In this document: one piece after another, positions 26,826 to 54,005 of the stretch
Layout: every line of letters starts with the position of its first letter
Position numbering within the stretch: the stretch's first letter is position 1
DNA from: Corynebacterium riegelii
GTDB taxonomy: Bacteria > Actinomycetota > Actinomycetes > Mycobacteriales > Mycobacteriaceae
Assembly: GCF_016728505.1 (NCBI RefSeq)
Contig: NZ_CP068159.1
Span: forward strand, 434,001-498,000
Direction: 5' to 3'
DNA length: 64,000 nucleotides
Translations under genes and position numbers: made by a program
Notes under the pieces: model-generated
Databases searched by the model: none
Seen by the model: only the letters and a program-made list of their open reading frames with translations
What the model was told of the DNA's origin: nothing

Positions 26826-27262
26826 TTGGCGGTGTTCGCGTTGGCGCCGTCAAGAGCCATGGCCCAAGACACACTATGGCTGATCACCGTGCTGTACATG
26901 CCGACAATTCTGGGCTCGGCGCAGTCCTGTTCGTGCTCGCCGCAATCGCCACGGTACTGGGGTGGACGGGAACTCGCGCGAAAACCACTACCGAGCCAAG
27001 CCCACAGGAGGCCGTCTACTCCCTGTCACCAAACGACACAATCCGCCAGGCGCTGCACATGTTCGTAGACAAGCGGATTTCTGGCGCGCCGCTGCTTAGC
27101 GACGACCGCACGCTGGCCGGTTTCGTCTCAGACGGCGACGTACTCGACGTTTGTGCCGGTCGCTGGGTAGCTCAACCGGCCGGAGCCGGAGAGTTGTTGG
27201 AGAGTTGTTTGAAACAACTCCAAACAACTCTGAAACAACTTCACCTCAAAACACCCCAGTAA
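26826..27262 (+). pseudogene. Remnant of a membrane protein with a CBS domain
   Basis: Seen: one frame from about 26826 gives a hydrophobic stretch (DTLWLITVLYMPTILGSA). A second frame takes over near 26920 with VLFVLAAIATVLGWTG and then a CBS-like half (VYSLSPNDTIRQALHMF, then SGAPLLSDDRTLAGFVSDGDVLD). The two frames read together look like the end of one membrane protein broken by a frameshift. The CBS part ends abruptly before a repeat array. Not assigned to a named family. An intact 174-codon frame from 26738 covers only the second part, so a small real protein remains possible. Confidence 0.45.
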
Positions 27263-27316
27263 ATGCACTATTTTCGCAGTTCACCATAGTTGTTTGGAGT
27301 TGTTCAGAGTTGTTTA
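27190..27316. repeat. Array of AGTTGTTT boxes in both orientations
   Basis: A 19-bp perfect palindrome (27202-27220, GAGTTGTTT-G-AAACAACTC) is followed by AAACAACT copies at about 27222 and 27233. After a 48-base spacer come AGTTGTTT (27289), AGTTGTT (27299) and AGTTGTTT (27309). Together they make a large imperfect inverted repeat downstream of the convergent EamA gene stop (27342) and over the end of the CBS remnant. Confidence 0.75.
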
Positions 27317-27341: not shown

Positions 27342-28241
27342 TCACGCCGCCCGCGATTCCTGAGCCCCGCGCCACGTGATCACCGCACCGGCGGCTGCGA
27401 TCAGAACAATGCCTGTAACCATGGACCAGGTCAGGTGGTCGCCGGAAAACGCCCAGCCCAAGATCGCGCCAATCACCGGATCTAGGGCAAAGAGCGTACC
27501 GACGACCGCCGCCGAGACAATCCCCGCCGCAATGGTGTCCATCACATACGGAATCACCGCACCGATGAACCCGGAGATGACGATGGTGACCCACACGGGG
27601 GCGTCGATAAGCGGAACTGCTCGAACTGAGAAAGGAGCAAGGATCAGCGCGGCAACAACCACAGACAAGGCAAGGTCCGACATGCTGCCGTTTTCGGTGC
27701 TCCCCATACGCTCGGCGAACACCGTGTAACCAGCGAAGAAACAGGCGCCGACCACAGCAAAGCCAACACCGAGCGGATCCAGATCATTCGATGGATTCGC
27801 AATCAACGCCACACCCACGAACGCGGCGATGGCCCACAAGCGGGAGCGCCACATCTTCAGCCCCAGGAAAGACACAACGCAGGGGCCGAGGAAATCGATG
27901 GTGACGGCAACGCCTAGGGGCAGGCGGGCGATAGCCGCATAAATCATCACGCTCATCATGCCCATGGTCACGCCGTAGACCGCGATGTTGATCGCCCGGG
28001 CGCGGGTCATGCCGCTCAGCTTCGGACGGAACAACAACACCATGATCACGGCCGCGGCCGTCATGCGCAGGCCGGACACACCCGGCGCGCCAATAGGCTC
28101 GAGCAGGTCTCTTACCAAAACGGCAGCGGCCTGCGTGCCTAGCGAGCCGATCACAACCATCAAAACAGGAGCCGCTGGCAGGGCAAGAAACGCGTTCATG
28201 CCCTGGCGGCTCATGCGGAATTGATTACGTTCACGCGCCAC
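27342..28241 (-). CDS. EamA/RhtA-type drug-metabolite exporter
   Basis: 299 residues, ten predicted transmembrane segments in two EamA repeats (about 20-145 and 155-290). Seen: PIGAPGVSGLRMTAAAVIMV and the second-repeat ALDPVIGAILGWAF, typical of the DMT superfamily and closest in feel to RhtA-like amino-acid exporters (threonine/homoserine). Substrate cannot be read from sequence. The GTG start at 28241 is the longest choice; ATG at 28214 (MSRQGMNAF) is equally plausible. It lies just beyond the left boundary repeat of the siderophore island. Confidence 0.82.
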   Translation of the reverse strand: MARERNQFRMSRQGMNAFLALPAAPVLMVVIGSLGTQAAAVLVRDLLEPIGAPGVSGLRMTAAAVIMVLLFRPKLSGMTRARAINIAVYGVTMGMMSVMIYAAIARLPLGVAVTIDFLGPCVVSFLGLKMWRSRLWAIAAFVGVALIANPSNDLDPLGVGFAVVGACFFAGYTVFAERMGSTENGSMSDLALSVVVAALILAPFSVRAVPLIDAPVWVTIVISGFIGAVIPYVMDTIAAGIVSAAVVGTLFALDPVIGAILGWAFSGDHLTWSMVTGIVLIAAAGAVITWRGAQESRAA

Positions 28242-38181: not shown

Positions 38182-39066
38182 TCATACTGCGAACATTGCC
38201 TCCATTTGCCTCGACCACTCCCGGAACCCAATATCCAGCCGCCCATCCATCGGCCTAACCCCCGGATACTGATTGAGCAAGGCCTGCAACTGCTGGATCA
38301 TCCCTGGATTGAACACATCGTCCCAGCCCACGCGGAAAAACACGCCACCTTTGTTCTGCAGCTGTTTCTCCCTATGACGCTCACTGCGCAACGCGCTTAG
38401 CGCATCCCCCATCGCGCCGCTGGTCTTCTCCGCGCCGTCAGCTTCCACCACGATGAACTCATTGATAATGCAGTCCACCCACGCGGCTGTGATGCCACCC
38501 AGCTCATCAGCAATTTGATACCCCACCTGGAACTCAATGGTCTCCACTCCCGTCAGGCGGCCATGCTTGATCGCCCACAGCAGCGTGTCACGCACCAAGG
38601 TCTCGAGCACGCTTGCCGACGTCTCCCCCGCCCCCTCAATCAACCTCCTAAACGGTTTAATGCCTCTGGCCTGCGGCAATACTTCCGTTTTCTCCAGCAA
38701 CGTCTCCACCGTGAGATGCGCGTGCTGCCACCTGGCAGACTCAATCTGCACCAACGCGTCCAACCTGCCGTAATAACGGAACGTGTCAAACATCGCCCGG
38801 ACCCCGATTGTGCTTTTGACCCCCTTGACGGTGCAGGTCTCCGCGTCCCGGAGGATTCCACCGTGATAGACCTTGTCCCTGTATTTAGCTCCCCAGGTTC
38901 TCGAGTTCCCTGGCAGAACCAAGTCCACTTTCTCTACCCACTTGAGCGTTGAGAGTCCCATCCAGCGTGCTGCTGCCGGCCCCGTGATCACTGCTGTTTT
39001 ACATTGCCCCGCCACTTTCGCAATCAGTGCGAGTTCGGCTTCTCTTTTCTTTGTGTAATCCCCCAT
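38182..39066 (-). CDS. AbiEi-like N-terminal plus DUF559/Vsr-like putative nuclease
   Basis: 294 residues, not a named gene. Seen: the N-terminal two-thirds follow the actinobacterial AbiEi-like pattern (AVITGPAAARWMGLS, then a beta-rich middle with CTVKGVKSTIGVRAMFDTFR). The C-terminal part has ETSASVLETLVRDTLL, then AAWVDCIINEFIVVEADGAEK, then RSERHREKQLQNKGGVFFRV. That order (E155, D198, E208, K214) fits the very-short-patch-repair-like PD-(D/E)XK fold of DUF559. Inference: a DNA-acting endonuclease or a toxin-antitoxin-derived protein; the residue calls are by eye. Its start lies about 45 bases from a two-hairpin repeat copy. A degenerate or inactive nuclease is possible. Confidence 0.6.
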   Translation of the reverse strand: MGDYTKKREAELALIAKVAGQCKTAVITGPAAARWMGLSTLKWVEKVDLVLPGNSRTWGAKYRDKVYHGGILRDAETCTVKGVKSTIGVRAMFDTFRYYGRLDALVQIESARWQHAHLTVETLLEKTEVLPQARGIKPFRRLIEGAGETSASVLETLVRDTLLWAIKHGRLTGVETIEFQVGYQIADELGGITAAWVDCIINEFIVVEADGAEKTSGAMGDALSALRSERHREKQLQNKGGVFFRVGWDDVFNPGMIQQLQALLNQYPGVRPMDGRLDIGFREWSRQMEAMFAV

Positions 39067-39406
39067 GCGGTTATTTCTACCGCATCTTTGTGAGTTTCAC
39101 ACGCGCTTTTCATTATCTGCTAGGAGCGCGCGACGTTCCCCTAGCAGACAATGAAAACGCCCCTCCATTTCCGCTGGTCAAATATAGAGACTTTCGGCCT
39201 ATTTTGCGTTGTATGCTAGTGCCGCACCTCCGCCCCTAGCAGACAAACGTTATGTCAAGTAGCCGGGCTGGGGCGGCGGGGGTTTGCGGCGGGGTTTGGG
39301 CCAGTGCAGGCTGAGGCCCAGGGGCCAAGCAGGGTGGAATCCAGGGCCAGGGCCAAGCAGGGCCGGAGTTAGGCAGGGCAGCGCAACCAGCGCAGGGCCC
39401 GGAAGG
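39067..39406. other. 340-bp gene-free region with repeat element and G-rich tract
   Basis: No gene seen. From left to right: promoter space for the minus-strand DUF559-like gene, two-hairpin element copy 2 (39106-39250), and a G-rich imperfectly repetitive tract (about 39262-39400) in which GGGCCAAGCAGGG-like units recur (39328 and 39351). The convergent side is the 3' end of the HAD phosphatase gene. Confidence 0.65.
39106..39250. repeat. Two-hairpin CTAG element, copy 2
   Basis: Hairpin 1 has arms of about 20 bases around CATTATCTGCTAGG and CCTAGCAGACAATG (39111-39152) with one mismatch and flanking TTTT/AAAA pairing. Hairpin 2 is less perfect (CGTTGTATGCTAG facing CTAGCAGACAAACG, 39208-39249). 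Between them is GTCAAATATAGAGAC (39177-39191). CTAG cores start at 39120, 39141, 39216 and 39236, giving spacings 21/36-to-GTC/39/20 against 20/36/39/20 in copy 1. Confidence 0.78.
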
Positions 39407-45127: not shown

Positions 45128-45844
45128 ATGCGCCAGCGCGTAAAAGTGGAGATTCTCATTGTCCTTGCCGTCACCTTCGGCACCGCAGGGCTAAGGGCGG
45201 GGCTTCGGCTTATCGACGCCCTCCTCAACGCCCCCTTAAACCAACAAACCACCGTGCTTGTAGACGCCCAGTCGTCCATCACCTGGATGGACCTAGCGCT
45301 GCAGGTAACCTCCGCGCTGGTGTTGGTGTCGTGGGGCGCGCTCGCGTGGTACCTGCTGTGGGTTGATGATCCTGCACGGTTCCGCTGGCGCTGGCCCCGC
45401 TGGCGCGACTGGGGTTGGGGCGCGGGCTTGGCTGCGCTAATCGGGCTTCCTGGCCTGGCGTTTTATGTGACGGCGGTGCACTTGGGTTTGAGCAAAGTAG
45501 TCGTGCCCGCCACAGATGCGGTGCAGATCCCGACCTCACTTGTGTGGGCGTTTGCCAACGGTTTCGGCGAGGAAGTTGTGGTGGTGATGTACCTAATGAC
45601 GCGCCTGGGCCACCTCGGCTGGCGGCCGTGGCAGATCATCGCCGCCTCGTCCGTACTGCGCGGCTCGTACCACCTCTACCAGGGGATTTCCGCAGGCTTG
45701 GGCAATATCGTGATGGGCGTGGTGTTCTGCGCGTGGTTTATCCGCACCGGCCGGGTGTGGCCGCTGATCATCGCCCATTTTCTTATCGACGCCACCGCCT
45801 TCTCCCTCTACCCCCTCCTCGATTTGAGCTGGCTCGGGATCTAG
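45128..45844 (+). CDS. CPBP (Abi/CAAX-type) intramembrane protease-like protein
   Basis: 238 residues, about seven to eight transmembrane segments. Seen: the CPBP motif 1 GFGEEVVVVMYLMTRL (EExxxxR-like, glutamates about 148-149), motif 2 with SSVLRGSYHLYQG (about 175-187, the H being a presumed metal ligand) and motif 3 HFLIDATAF (about 218-226). Members process or protect against prenylated peptides or act in bacteriocin immunity; the exact job is unknown. Divergent from pheA, convergent with the LCP gene across a repeat-rich gap. Confidence 0.8.
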   Translation: MRQRVKVEILIVLAVTFGTAGLRAGLRLIDALLNAPLNQQTTVLVDAQSSITWMDLALQVTSALVLVSWGALAWYLLWVDDPARFRWRWPRWRDWGWGAGLAALIGLPGLAFYVTAVHLGLSKVVVPATDAVQIPTSLVWAFANGFGEEVVVVMYLMTRLGHLGWRPWQIIAASSVLRGSYHLYQGISAGLGNIVMGVVFCAWFIRTGRVWPLIIAHFLIDATAFSLYPLLDLSWLGI

Positions 45845-45963
45845 CCGCGTCTTCGGCGTCTCGCGTCGCCTCGCGTCTCGCGTCGCGTCTCGTGTCCCGC
45901 GTCCTCGCGCTCCCGGCCCGCGTCGCGTCGCGTCCCGCGTCGTCGATTCCCTGCCTCGCGCCA

Positions 45964-46091
45964 CCGATTCCCTGCCCCGCGCCTCGCGCCCCAGCCCGCA
46001 CCACCGATTCCCCGTGTCCCCGCACCCCCGATTCCCTGCCCCGCGCCTCGCGCCCCAGCCCGCACCACCGATTCCCCGTGTCCCCGCACCC
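45964..46091. repeat. 64-bp exact tandem duplication, C-rich
   Basis: Copies 45964-46027 and 46028-46091 are identical, starting CCGATTCCCTGCCCCGCG and ending CCCCGCACCC. Each copy itself contains two CCGATTCCC boxes. Further diverged CGATTCCCTGCC units lie just upstream (45953). Confidence 0.9.
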
Positions 46092-46108
46092 TCAGCCCGC
46101 CCAAAAAC

Positions 46109-46226
46109 ACAAATATGCATATGCATATATGCATGAGTAATGGTCAGCGCGTTTTTTCAATAAGGCACTCGTTAATGAAAATTAGCCGCGACCTGCAAAC
46201 ATGCATATATGCATATGCATATTTGT
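46109..46226. repeat. Nested AT-rich palindrome with 27-bp perfect arms
   Basis: Outer arms 46109-46135 and 46200-46226 are perfect reverse complements built from ATGCATAT units (start ACAAATATGCATATG). An inner dyad TTTTCAATAA (46154-46163) / TTAATGAAAA (46172-46181), 9 of 10 paired, has exactly the same centre (46167.5). Strikingly AT-rich in a GC-rich chromosome. It could be a bidirectional terminator, a protein-binding site or a mobile-element end pair. Confidence 0.85.
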
Positions 46227-46278
46227 TGAAACGAGGGGCCAGACACCGTCAACGAAGGGGCGCCGTCAGCGAGGGGCA

Positions 46279-47490
46279 CTACTTCAGCGAGTCGAACAGT
46301 GCTTGGGCGCCGGCGTCGTCCCAGACGGCGACATTGCCTACGTCCGTATCCATGAAGTCATAAATCGGGATCGTTTCCGTGCGCACCCCGCCGCGCATGG
46401 CCAGCGCCACTCGCGCCAGGCTCCACACGTGGTCGCCTTGATCCACGGTGAACATCGCTGGCGTAGTCCACATCAAGGGGATCATGCGGAAAGGATTGAG
46501 CAGCGTTGCAGGTGACGTCACCTTGCTCATCACCGCAGCGAGGAACTCACGCTGGCGAACCACACGGTCCAAATCACCCAGCGCGGTGGCGCGCGTACGT
46601 ACGTAGCCCAGGCCGGTCGCGCCGTCCATCTTCTGGCAACCCGGCGCGAGGCTGATATTTGCCAGCGGGTCCGTGATCGGTTCCGCCACGCAGATCTCTA
46701 CCCCGCCGACGGCGTCCACAACGTTGGCCAGACCGCCCATGCCGATCTCTGCGTAGTGGTCAATGCGCAGGCCCGTGGACTGTTCCACCGTCTGCACCAG
46801 AAGCGGCGCACCGCCGTAGGCGAACGCGGCGTTGATCTTGTCGTAGCCGTAGCCCGGCACCTCAACGTAGCTATCGCGCGGAATGGACATCAGCGTCGCT
46901 CGCCCAGCGCGGGGGAGATGCATCAGCATGATCGTGTCCGTGCGGGTGGAGCCGATATCGCCACCCGTGCCTAGGCGGTCAATCTCGTCCTGGCTCATGC
47001 CAGTCCGCGAGTCAGAACCGACGAACAGCCAGTTCGTCCCAGCCGTGTTCGCTACCTGTTGCGTGGGCATGGCTTGGGTGCGGTTTAGGCGGGCGTCGGC
47101 AAGCAGCATGCCCACGATGGAGAGCACTAGGACGGTGAGGATGACCAGGCTGCCGCAGCCGACGCAGCCGGGACGTTTGCGCCTGGGCCGCGGGCGGGGT
47201 TTCGGTTTGGGCCGCGGGCGCTCGTGGATCTGCATAGGGACCGGCTCACGACGCTGCTGAACGGGGCGCTGCTGAACGGGGCGCTGCGGCAGCTCGTCGG
47301 GCATGATCTGGCGCGCACGCTGCTCGTGCGGTGTGCGTCGCGGCTGGTACTCCGAAGATCGGTATTCCGAGGTCCGCCGGGAGGAATCGCCGCTAGCATC
47401 ACGACGACGCACTGGCCTGCCGTAGCGGTCCAGCAGCGGCTTGCCATCTTTGCCGTAGACGTACTGGCTACGGTCCTCCCGGTTATCCAT
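46279..47490 (-). CDS. LytR-CpsA-Psr (LCP) family cell-wall ligase
   Basis: 403 residues. Seen: a charged, Arg/Pro-rich cytoplasmic N-terminus (about 1-108, RSEYQPRRTPHEQ, PKPKPRPRPRRKR), one transmembrane segment (about 114-133, LVILTVLVLSIVGMLLA) and an extracytoplasmic LCP domain with SRTGMSQDEIDR, LMSIPRDSYVEVPGYGYDKINAAFA split by a conserved Arg-Asp, and YAEIGMGGLANVVDAVGG. Known: actinobacterial LCP proteins attach arabinogalactan to peptidoglycan, so this links to the arabinogalactan genes at the left end. No C-terminal LytR_C domain is present. Confidence 0.9.
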   Translation of the reverse strand: MDNREDRSQYVYGKDGKPLLDRYGRPVRRRDASGDSSRRTSEYRSSEYQPRRTPHEQRARQIMPDELPQRPVQQRPVQQRREPVPMQIHERPRPKPKPRPRPRRKRPGCVGCGSLVILTVLVLSIVGMLLADARLNRTQAMPTQQVANTAGTNWLFVGSDSRTGMSQDEIDRLGTGGDIGSTRTDTIMLMHLPRAGRATLMSIPRDSYVEVPGYGYDKINAAFAYGGAPLLVQTVEQSTGLRIDHYAEIGMGGLANVVDAVGGVEICVAEPITDPLANISLAPGCQKMDGATGLGYVRTRATALGDLDRVVRQREFLAAVMSKVTSPATLLNPFRMIPLMWTTPAMFTVDQGDHVWSLARVALAMRGGVRTETIPIYDFMDTDVGNVAVWDDAGAQALFDSLK

Positions 47491-51703: not shown

Positions 51704-52447
51704 ATGACGGAAAAGCCTCAGGTACCCGCCGCACGCAACGTGCTGCGCATCCTGACGCTGCTAGCAAGCACGGACACACCGATTTCCGCGCGGCGCATTA
51801 TGCATGAACTCGACCTGCCGCGTTCAACCACCTACCACCTGCTGCGTGAACTGGAAGATTCCGGATATGTGGTTCATCTTGACCACCCCAGCACCTACGG
51901 CTTGGGGTTGGCGGCGTACCAGATGAGCCAGGCGTACACCACGCAGCAGCCCTTGGTGCGCATGGCGGCAAAGTCCCTGGAAAAGATCGCTGCGATGGCA
52001 GGCGGGTCCACCCACTTATCCCGTCTAGCAGGCACGGAAGTGCTCTACCTCCACGAAGCACGCGCGCCCGGCGCGGTCTCCCTTGTCACCGTGAAGGGGG
52101 TGCGGCTGCCGGCACTGCGTACCGCCTCCGGGCGTGCAATGTTGGCACACCTGCCGGAGTCTGAGCTGCGCGCCATTTTTGCCACCTCTGAAAACCGGCC
52201 GCTCTACAAAGACCTGCAGGAACAGCTGGAACAGGTGCGTGAGCGCGGCTGGTCCACCGAGATCGAAGAGGTTGCCCGCGGCCAAGAAAGCATTGCCGTT
52301 GCCGTGCTTGATCACCTCCAGCGGCCGGCCGCTGCGGTTGCTGTCACATTCCCTCTTTGCAACGATGACGCGAAGAAACAGCAGCTTGTGGACGCTTTGA
52401 AAGAAACTGCAGAAATTTTGAAGCAGAAGTTCTTTGATAAACGCTAG
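51704..52447 (+). CDS. hutR: IclR-family regulator of histidine utilisation (HutR)
   Basis: 247 residues from ATG 51704 (MTEKPQVPAARNVLR); a longer frame upstream is antisense to hutG. Seen: winged helix PISARRIMHELDLPRSTTYHLLRELE (about 26-51, split by a turn) and an IclR effector domain with GVRLPALRTASGRAMLAHL. Located between divergent hutG and hutH, which starts 10 bases after its stop. Known: an IclR-type activator HutR controls hut genes in corynebacteria. A short dyad-like TATACACGCAGATATA lies in the 37-bp hutG-hutR gap. Confidence 0.87.
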   Translation: MTEKPQVPAARNVLRILTLLASTDTPISARRIMHELDLPRSTTYHLLRELEDSGYVVHLDHPSTYGLGLAAYQMSQAYTTQQPLVRMAAKSLEKIAAMAGGSTHLSRLAGTEVLYLHEARAPGAVSLVTVKGVRLPALRTASGRAMLAHLPESELRAIFATSENRPLYKDLQEQLEQVRERGWSTEIEEVARGQESIAVAVLDHLQRPAAAVAVTFPLCNDDAKKQQLVDALKETAEILKQKFFDKR

Positions 52448-52457
52448 AGTTTGGCGC

Positions 52458-54005
52458 ATGAACCAGACCACCACTGTGCAGGTAGGCATCGGCGCACTCA
52501 GCATCGCAGATGTTGTCGCCGTCGCCCGTGAAAACGCCAAGGTTTCCATTGACCCTGAGGCCATTGCAGCAATCGCAGAAACGCGTGCGCGCGTTGAAGA
52601 ACTCGCGGAAGACCCCACTCCGGTCTACGGCATCTCCACCGGCTTCGGTGCGCTTGCCCGCCGCCACATCCCGCACGAACTGCGCGAGCAGCTGCAGGTG
52701 TCACTCGTGCGCTCCCATGCTGCGGGCTCTGGCCCTGAGGTAGAGCAGGAAGTGGTGCGCGCCACCATGCTGCTTCGTTTGTCCACGCTGTGTACCGGGC
52801 GTACCGGTGTGCGTCCCGTCGTGGCGGAAACCTACGCTGCAGTCCTGAACGCTGGCATCACTCCGGTGGTGCACGAGTACGGCTCGCTCGGCTGCTCGGG
52901 TGACCTGGCGCCGCTCGCGCACTGCGCGCTCGCGCTGCTTGGTGAGGGCGACGTGCGTGTCGGCGGCGGCCCAATCGTCAGCGCCGCCGAAGCCCTGGCA
53001 GAGGCGGGTATTGAGCCGCTGGTGCTCCAGGAGAAGGAAGGCCTGGCGCTGATCAACGGCACCGATGGCATGCTGGGCATGCTGTGCCTGGCCATTACGG
53101 ATCTGCGCGAAGCAGCGAAGGTTGCCGATATTGCGACCGCAATGACGGTGGAAGGTCTTACGGGCACGCTCACCGTGTTCGCCGATGACTTGCAGCAGCT
53201 GCGCCCCCACCCGGGCCAGGCGGATGCGGCGTACAACATTCGCACCGTTGCGGATGGCTCCGAAATCCTGGCGCGTGCCGCCGAGGAGTTTCGCCAGAAG
53301 CAGGTGCAGGACGCCTACTCGGTGCGCTGCGCACCCCAGGTCGCGGGCGGTTTCCGCGACACCGTCGACCACGCCGCACTGGTGGCTTCGCGCGAGCTGG
53401 CCTCCGCCATTGACAACCCGGTCGTAGCCCTCGACGGGCGCGTGACCTCCAACGGCAACTTCCACGGCGCACCCGTTGCGTACGTGTTGGACTTTTTGGC
53501 GGTGGTGGTGGCGGATTTGGCGTCCATTAGCGAAAGGCGCACCGACCGCTTCCTGGACACCGCACGAAACCGTGGTCTGAACGCGTTTCTTGCGGATGAC
53601 CCGGGTGTGGATTCCGGCCACATGATCGCGCAGTACACCGCCGCGGGCATTGTCAGCGAGCTGAAGCGCTGCGCCATGCCGGCCTCGGCCGATTCGATCC
53701 CCTCGTCCGCGATGCAGGAGGACCACGTGTCCATGGGCTGGGCGGCAGGCCGCAAGCTGCGCCGCGCCGTCGACGGGCTGCAGCGCGTGCTGGCAATTGA
53801 GATCCTCACCGCTGCGCGCGCGTTGGACATGCGCGACGGCGCCTGCGCGCCGGGCACGCAGGCCGCGGTTGACCTGCTTCGCACCCGCGTGGAGGGCCCG
53901 GGCACGGACCGCTTCCTCGCACCCGAGATCACCCACGCCGTGGAGCTGGTGCAAAGCGGCAAGTTTGTCACCGCCGTCGAGGCCGCGGTGGGCGAACTGC
54001 GCTAG
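52458..54005 (+). CDS. hutH: Histidine ammonia-lyase
   Basis: 515 residues from ATG 52458. Removes ammonia from L-histidine to give urocanate. Seen: the MIO-forming tripeptide as C146-S147-G148 (YGSLGCSGDLAPLAH) where most enzymes have Ala-Ser-Gly; the catalytic Tyr loop YGISTGFGALARR (about 58-70); QEDHVSMGWAAGRK and the C-terminal region are all conserved. The lyase signature allows Cys at this place, so activity is expected. First of the hutH-U-I series, which share a strand with gaps of about 180 and 28 bases. Confidence 0.94.
   Translation: MNQTTTVQVGIGALSIADVVAVARENAKVSIDPEAIAAIAETRARVEELAEDPTPVYGISTGFGALARRHIPHELREQLQVSLVRSHAAGSGPEVEQEVVRATMLLRLSTLCTGRTGVRPVVAETYAAVLNAGITPVVHEYGSLGCSGDLAPLAHCALALLGEGDVRVGGGPIVSAAEALAEAGIEPLVLQEKEGLALINGTDGMLGMLCLAITDLREAAKVADIATAMTVEGLTGTLTVFADDLQQLRPHPGQADAAYNIRTVADGSEILARAAEEFRQKQVQDAYSVRCAPQVAGGFRDTVDHAALVASRELASAIDNPVVALDGRVTSNGNFHGAPVAYVLDFLAVVVADLASISERRTDRFLDTARNRGLNAFLADDPGVDSGHMIAQYTAAGIVSELKRCAMPASADSIPSSAMQEDHVSMGWAAGRKLRRAVDGLQRVLAIEILTAARALDMRDGACAPGTQAAVDLLRTRVEGPGTDRFLAPEITHAVELVQSGKFVTAVEAAVGELR

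Follow-up and report, generated by a model that had tools for sequence, protein, structure and literature searches.

The 118-bp palindrome at positions 46109-46226 of the analysed DNA belongs to a dispersed repeat, and relatives of this repeat are associated with the gene of a nuclease-like protein across the genus Corynebacterium. Its arms are 14-bp-phased repeats that are inverted about a core and change together on both sides, and they are lineage-specific while the 14-bp phasing recurs from lineage to lineage. This points to palindrome and gene being an undescribed nuclease-and-palindrome pair, which is probably spreading inside genomes. The reading that we favour, and regard as fairly probable, is that the palindrome is the non-coding partner of the nuclease gene in an arrangement like that of REPINs and RAYTs, working with an unrelated enzyme. 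The DNA (the window, 64,000 nucleotides) is from Corynebacterium riegelii (GCF_016728505.1, NZ_CP068159.1, positions 434,001-498,000 of the forward strand, G000:C1:434001-498000), whose genome of 2.52 Mb is designated as G000. The element and its surroundings in the window are as follows.

45128-45844, plus strand: left neighbour, gene of a CPBP/Rce1-like protease, 3' end towards the element
45845-46108, no strand: GC-rich flank in which a 64-bp unit is repeated in tandem (two units, 95% alike), missing together with the element in the sister genome G025
46109-46226, no strand: 118-bp palindromic element, one of 18 genome copies
46109-46135, plus strand: left outer arm, 27 bp, perfectly complementary to the right arm
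46113-46121, plus strand: site 1 of the left arm, ATATGCATA, with the partner site starting 14 bp on
46127-46135, plus strand: site 2 of the left arm, ATATGCATG, 14 bp from site 1
46142-46146, plus strand: inner box GGTCA, with a GGTC-like box in the same position in many relatives (by eye)
46153-46181, no strand: inner dyad TTTTTCAATAA-N8-TTAATGAAAA, halves 46153-46163 and 46172-46181
46189-46193, minus strand: inner box of the right side, CGACC in the window copy and TGACC in the consensus
46200-46226, plus strand: right outer arm, 27 bp
46200-46208, minus strand: site 2' of the right arm, inverted
46214-46222, minus strand: site 1' of the right arm, inverted
46279-47490, minus strand: right neighbour, gene of a LytR-CpsA-Psr protein, 3' end towards the element

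The perfect 27-bp arms and the inner dyad on a common centre, as described in an earlier note on this DNA, were confirmed: 64 nt separate the arms, and both arms and dyad are centred at 46167.5. With up to 300 bp allowed between the arms, no perfect inverted repeat in the window was longer, the next one having 17-bp arms. When positions 46105-46230 were folded as single-stranded DNA, -38 kcal/mol was obtained, compared with -16.0 +/- 2.5 kcal/mol for 200 shuffled sequences (z -8.8). The element ends read ACAnATATG and CATATnTGT by inspection. The oddity of the ATGCAT runs held up in counting, with six of the 12 ATGCAT sites of the 64 kb lying inside the 118 bp, and this make-up is restricted to the window copy, GCAGG-type sites replacing GCATA/GCATG in the other 17 copies of G000. 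The matches returned by an Rfam search of the element (mir-1277 and others) had scores far under the gathering cut-offs and were rejected as chance fits to an AT-rich hairpin.

The search for copies in the genome, which had been proposed as a check, gave 18 copies in G000 with the window copy included (L001-L018), and relatives were found in other corynebacteria. The copies are alike over about 118 bp and their flanks are little alike beyond a few bases, with the exceptions of L010 and L012, which belong to a tandem duplication, and of a stretch of about 40 bp common to L009 and L014. The L008 copy is split by an IS21-type element, and the L018 copy has an 8-nt alignment gap (a small deletion). 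The GCAGG-type arm pattern, with up to three mismatches, was found at 17 forward and 18 reverse places in G000, and the reversed control pattern at none; these places correspond to the arms in the 17 remaining copies, the arms of the window copy being the GCATA/GCATG variant outside the pattern. As all of these pattern-found arms stand in close pairs, bar the one IS21-split copy, the suggestion that the palindrome represents the joined ends of an inserted element was not borne out. Likewise, a parent transposon in G000 was rejected, since the sole distant arm pair (688.2-691.0 kb) is the copy split by the IS21-type element. This IS21-type element (IstB by Pfam; L065 1771-4416, G000 at about 688.3-690.9 kb) lies inside the core of the copy, with an apparent CTATT duplication. 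At L079 (about 1651-2146, G000 2344.15-2344.65 kb), two copies lie 379 bp apart in a tandem duplication whose units are 84% alike, and a single copy is found at the corresponding locus of G025. By a simple codon-usage gene caller, and with L065 used in place of L008, 10 of the 18 copies were placed in convergent gaps, eight in tandem gaps and none in divergent gaps; the divergent share of gaps of at least 150 bp was 39/164 in the samples of G012 and G144 and 5/31 in the window together with the G000 and G025 stretches.

There are two sites per arm, 14 bp apart; the covariation of the arms was estimated with 23 aligned copies (17 from G000 and six from G025, L008 excluded). Altogether 95.3% of the cells pair, and 43 both-side changes were counted versus 13.9 +/- 2.8 in shuffled data, the value being lowered when the partner was slid. 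The changes fall mostly on the final two bases of a site and on the spacer between the sites, and the spacer changes are uncompensated in some copies, to the extent of at most five arm mismatches. In the same 23 copies, both halves of the inner dyad are invariant or nearly so and its centre is variable.

By sequence search, the element was found in two of 61 genomes, G000 and G025. By a covariance model of arms and core (E 0.01, strict filters), it was found in eight of 242 genus genomes, namely G000, G025, G016, G187, G209, G154, G124 and G255. The arms differ: they are ATATGCAGGnCTCGATATGCGTAA in the elements of G016 and G187, AAGTGCAGACCTGG-type units in those of G154 and G124, and arrays of GGGGCAGGTATTCC-like units in those of G255; the 16 arm places of G016 and G187 all stand in close pairs. 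The copy number is uneven, with 18 in G000, six in G025, five in G187 and three in G016, and one element was found in G209 by the covariance model. For the arms linked to the nuclease genes of G012 and G144, no further copies were present in 20-kb stretches covering 14% and 17% of the two genomes, respectively, so that dispersal was not seen everywhere. At L158 (G255:C25, about 3.1-3.3 kb), an element has a 25-bp unit four times in one arm, a minisatellite-like growth.

The recurrence of the 14-bp phasing was estimated with one palindrome per genome in 17 genomes, seven of which are the genomes of discovery, the palindromes being chosen solely as inverted repeats with a score of at least 17. 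The mean self-match of the arms was 0.57 at lag 14, and at every other lag between 6 and 21 it lay within 0.20-0.30; lag 14 was strongest in 15 of the 17 genomes (the exceptions being G016 and G234) and in nine of the 10 genomes that remain without the discovery genomes.

In all eight genomes recognized by the covariance model, a homolog of one nuclease gene, encoding a protein of about 300 amino acids with a Vsr-type, PD-(D/E)XK-like restriction-endonuclease domain, adjoins one element; the linked element of G255 is of the iteron type and outside the model matches, the gene of G209 is frameshifted, and the contig of G154 ends inside the gene. The neighbouring genes were named by family search as amn (the AMP nucleosidase gene, by its Pfam AMNp_N match), hutH and hutU. 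According to the comparison of flanking proteins, six genomes (G000, G025, G016, G187, G209 and G255) have the element at the amn 3' end. The homologs of G124 and G154, which are 28% and 31% identical to the G000 protein, respectively, adjoin an element at another locus, hutH/hutU. In G009, G002 and G145, amn also adjoins the nuclease gene, and a palindrome above the threshold is present in two of these three. The C-terminal half of the linked protein matched MTES_1575 (7e-5, below the curated cut-off) in G000 and DUF559 (2e-5) in G124, the DUF559 match being above the cut-off in the G124 homolog only. A weak UPF0102 match was obtained as well, and no transposase family. An AbiEi-like region was detected in one of the three proteins tested, the G124 homolog (PADLOC AbiEi, E 6e-5), and in neither the G000 nor the G016 protein. 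A search for a solved-structure relative by sequence gave none, the best E value being 0.94.

Ten residues (E198, D227, E237, D239, G240, K243, E259, R262, N268 and R275) show no difference among the 28 homologs aligned, the most distant of which is 26% identical to the G000 protein, and the enzyme core thus seems to have been retained. E198, D227, E237, D239, K243 and others of this set are those which we take to be the Vsr-type active site. With a profile of seven nucleases, homologs were found in 173 of the 242 genus genomes at E 1e-10. Five homologs were counted in G000 by the profile search, two of which were located: the gene at the amn locus and a distant homolog in the window. No nuclease homolog lies within 1.5 kb on either side of 17 of the 18 G000 copies. 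The window homolog and the repeat ahead of it are as follows.

38182-39066, minus strand: distant homolog of the element-linked nuclease family (HMM E 4.6e-15)
39107-39157, no strand: 51-bp imperfect inverted repeat (TTTTCATTATCTGCTAGG...), about 40 bp upstream of the start of the window homolog

The window homolog had no Pfam match at E<=1, and its single-sequence structure model had a mean pLDDT of 31.5 and was unusable. At its ends, the 39107-39157 repeat is similar to the inner dyad of the 118-bp element.

For the association between palindrome and nuclease gene, 30 homolog loci were collected, mainly as the best match per genome, and 29 were left after the exclusion of L232, a contig-end fragment of G154; an N-masked stretch of L230 was excluded from the palindrome counts and L230 was counted by its other repeats. 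An association was recorded when an inverted repeat of 75-150 bp with a score of at least 15 lay within 300 bp of the gene, and 453 genes of at least 600 bp in 800 kb of G012 and G144 were used as the controls. Outside the eight genomes, an inverted repeat was present near 14 of 22 homologs versus four of 453 control genes (Fisher p 3e-18), where the homolog loci, coming from related genomes, are non-independent and correspond to about 13 gene contexts. The remaining eight of the 22 loci had no inverted repeat at the threshold. As further controls, inverted repeats were found beside two of 49 window genes, one of the two adjoining the window element, and beside 12 of 110 genes of other loci, all 12 adjoining element copies or the G025 palindrome L100 because some of those loci had been chosen for their elements. 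A 14-bp direct repeat was present in the flanks of 15 of 22 homologs versus 17 of 513 controls; among the homologs, all remaining lags from 9 to 21 stayed at or below 4/22, and in the controls the periods 9, 12 and 21 were commoner (40-57/513). Five of the eight loci below the threshold (G108, G075, G226, G021 and G009) have 14-bp arrays or halved palindromes by eye, which were left uncounted. Both G108 palindromes (L226) have a halved look; a transposase-type gene (Pfam rve) lies on one side and a similar-looking gene on the other.

The palindrome starts at most 15 nt from the stop codon of the nuclease gene in 11 of the 29 loci (G016, G187, G124, G002, G145, G012, G036, G011, G112, G197 and G144), and an inverted repeat with a score of at least 13 lies 50-180 nt upstream of the nuclease start in 10 of the 29. 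Palindromes on both sides of the gene, at the same score, are present in G124, G012, G011, G234 and G081. In G124 and G012, hutH and hutU are separated by a palindrome-nuclease-palindrome unit of about 1.2 kb; in the window, hutH (52434-54005) and hutU (from 54122) are adjacent with no unit between them. Sometimes, then, the nuclease gene with a palindrome on each side forms an IS-like unit.

REP, ERIC and other short palindromes occur commonly in bacterial genomes, and to our knowledge the mover of many palindromes of this type is not known. The present element resembles the REPIN/RAYT system in that short extragenic palindromes with two inverted ends and compensatory arms are dispersed and that the enzyme gene is sometimes flanked by copies (PMC3116915, PMC3733652). 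The 18 copies, intergenic by the simple gene caller, correspond to the extragenic dispersed palindromic doublet of that system; compensatory changes of the arms are described for REPINs (PMC3116915), and REPtrons are described as RAYT genes with REPs on their flanks (PMC3733652). The element differs from that system in that the linked enzyme is REase-like rather than an HUH tyrosine transposase, that the arms carry 14-bp-phased direct repeats, that the element is larger (85-141 bp), and that no GTAG or CGTC tag was seen at the element ends by inspection. With an unrelated enzyme and the tags absent, the element is placed outside the REPIN/RAYT family.

In the mechanism that we propose, the AbiEi-like front part of the nuclease would bind the 14-bp sites, and cleavage by the nuclease part would fall either on the palindrome, perhaps in its cruciform state, or on a target behind genes. 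Repair or copying would then spread solo palindromes into the gaps behind genes, by analogy with REPINs and RAYTs. The window copy would be such a solo palindrome, and the "home" copy with its nuclease would be the one at the amn locus (about 729.6-730.8 kb), where the nuclease gene occupies about 729.86-730.77 kb. The earlier idea of a site for a symmetric protein is in keeping with a dispersed repeat that has paired 14-bp-phased sites and is linked to a nuclease gene family; on the whole the earlier interpretation was upheld in part, the symmetric-protein site and the inserted element fitting and the joined ends not. Against the proposed system, the match to the MTES_1575/DUF559 family is weak and AbiEi similarity was seen in one of three proteins. 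The G012 and G144 samples free of further copies, the failure to find a clean empty site, the 17 G000 copies with no homolog nearby and the eight homolog loci below the threshold count against it too. The fuller reading, in which a single Vsr/AbiEi-like nuclease recognizes lineage-specific 14-bp-phased arrays, moves as palindrome-nuclease-palindrome, seeds solo palindromes behind genes and co-evolves with the arms as an undescribed class of mobile system, each lineage having arms of its own within a constant layout, is put forward tentatively, as a possibility for which the chances are a little under even.

An AbiEi-like part could also bind the palindromes as operators of its own gene, the nuclease being a defence protein and the scattered copies extra sites or decoys. 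AbiEi and Rv2827c are described as binding inverted repeats ahead of their own genes, two of 23 bp for AbiEi and four of 23 bp for Rv2827c in their own promoters (PMC7319586). The inverted repeats found upstream of the nuclease in 10 of 29 loci, and the 51-bp one upstream of the window homolog, would suit such operators. The palindromes that start at the stop codon rather than at a promoter in 11 of 29 loci, and the lack of any copy between divergent genes despite the share of such gaps given above, argue against them, and we consider this regulatory reading unlikely. The comparison with these antitoxins extends to the AbiEi-like region of the G124 homolog and to the inverted repeats near the gene (PMC7319586), whereas here the region is fused to a nuclease-like domain and the palindromes lie at the 3' end and are scattered through the genome. 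The best Pfam matches of the C-terminal half, MTES_1575 and DUF559, are like Vsr-type REase domains, MTES_1575 being described as a Vsr REase fold (PMC3710099). MTES_1575 domains are described there in conflict-system fusions, and a link to dispersed palindromes is absent from the available text of that account (PMC3710099). A link of DUF559, MTES_1575, AbiEi or Vsr to palindromic repeats was not found in the open-access papers searched, nor was anything on the 118-bp element in the open-access literature on MITEs and palindromes of Corynebacterium.

The short, non-coding character, the terminal inverted repeats, the size, the intergenic position and the 18 copies are features of MITEs, and the element might be an ordinary MITE belonging to a conventional insertion sequence that has lost its transposase gene, with an incidental link to the nuclease. 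The flanks were examined for target duplications, and 3-6 of 500 permutations in five of 15 settings, with nothing in the rest, gave weak hints of a 4-5 bp GTTTC/GAAAC duplication, which would be in favour of a MITE. No pattern-found arm pair flanks a transposase, except in the copy split by the IS21-type element with its own ends, and the nuclease link recurs with different arms in genomes other than those of discovery; a MITE of this kind is accordingly judged to be improbable. Element ends shared with an autonomous transposon were not found for the arms of G000, G016 and G187 or in plasmids and phages. The search of plasmids, which had likewise been proposed, and that of phages gave no match to the element over more than 20% of the query, and the G016 relative was not found in plasmids. 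One IMG/VR contig matched an arm pattern once in the 1978 bases examined, where two other arm patterns had no match. Altogether, these searches revealed no relative in phages or plasmids. The G124 nuclease had no match in plasmids at 1e-10, and the G000 nuclease none in phages at 1e-5. The element is also like the BrickBuilt MITE of Porphyromonas gingivalis, which has 19 intergenic copies in one strain and direct repeats within an inverted-repeat element (PMC4596501). BrickBuilt, however, is described as a 23-nt tandem array with small inverted ends (PMC4596501), whereas the present element has the repeats as its arms and is linked to a nuclease gene.

Insertion was further assessed by comparison with the sister genome G025, which has six copies, five of them at loci also occupied in G000 (L005/L021, L004/L024, L014/L025, L010-L012/L023 and L015/L027). 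At L005/L021, L004/L024 and L014/L025, the arm types differ between G000 and G025 and the gap has diverged around the elements, while the genes on the sides match well. L024 and L025 of G025 are near-identical copies with unlike flanks. G025 has no copy at any of the four empty-side loci compared (the window, L009, L013 and L017); the extra DNA of G000 at these loci is about 140-420 bp, not 118, so that the exact insertion point is unreadable from this comparison, and neither a clean empty site of 118 bp nor a clear target duplication emerged at any of the four. By eye, the extra DNA at L013 has an imperfect direct repeat of about 30 bp at its two edges. In place of the L009 copy, G025 carries another palindrome (L100, G025:C72 at about 42.0 kb), CTAAACCCCGAAT...ATTCGGGGTTTAG, with a 14-bp repeat by eye.

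The window locus bears on whether the palindrome is a bidirectional terminator or an RNA hairpin of a 3'-UTR kept for the adjoining genes. The earlier note had set against its own view an ordinary bidirectional terminator with matching arms at the corresponding position of other genomes, and such a terminator did not turn up in the genomes compared. In G025, about 420 bp of the G000 locus is absent together with the element, and the two stop codons are about 14 bp apart; in six relatives that are more distant, the genes to either side are co-directional and about 50 bp apart where both ends align. The polarity of the insertion is to be read with this in mind, as G025 lacks the 420 bp, yet the LytR gene is oppositely oriented in the six outgroup loci. 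The convergent and tandem placements of the copies with none divergent, the strong fold, and a T run (GTTTTTGGG) following the window arm on the minus strand would agree with a terminator. The stem is AT-rich (8 G/C of 27) and the middle is long, the plus strand has no T run, the T run of the minus strand is not common to other copies, and the arms are lineage-specific, with the locus empty in G025. No terminator-like site was called in 45800-46400 by a scan that takes loops of 3-8 nt only. A terminator role was hence not supported, in what was a weak test, and it is regarded as very improbable. The LytR-CpsA-Psr gene is convergent with the CPBP gene in G000 and G025 and co-directional in the six outgroup loci, and from this difference in orientation the window element sits near a rearrangement breakpoint (45128-47490).

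Inverted half-sites accompanied by arm-type sites are known from attP and internal resolution sites. A recombinase site of that kind, with inverted half-sites, a variable 8-nt centre and four arm-type sites, is scarcely credible for the element: the variable centre between near-invariant dyad halves in 23 copies and the reversed orientation of the element at one pair of orthologous loci (L004/L024) would fit it, but a hairpin loop would also give a variable centre, and the inner core, unlike the 14-bp phasing, is not common to G016, G187 and most G255 relatives.

Should the preferred reading of a palindrome paired with a nuclease be true, it would make a second, unrelated class of palindrome-tied enzymes, which would suggest that the REPIN/RAYT arrangement arose more than once, and it would suggest a role for a widespread nuclease-like family (173/242 genus genomes). 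The lineage-specific arms beside nucleases of readable sequence make a natural set for studying the change of recognition sites.

A pattern matching the inner dyad, TTTTCAWTAA-N8-TTAWTGAAAA (0-1 mismatch), was also found ahead of three His-rich genes in G023, G208 and G114 (L103, L104 and L134, at about 1500-1530), where it is likely an operator, and ahead of another gene in G162. By recognition, the three genes are presumably those of CDF exporters. All 15 places of the pattern in G000 are elements, and therefore a zinc or metal regulator of the element was not supported and was rejected. The second-longest perfect inverted repeat of the window, at 27213-27304, consists of AAACAACT units spaced 10-11 bp and adjoins the gene at 27342-28241.
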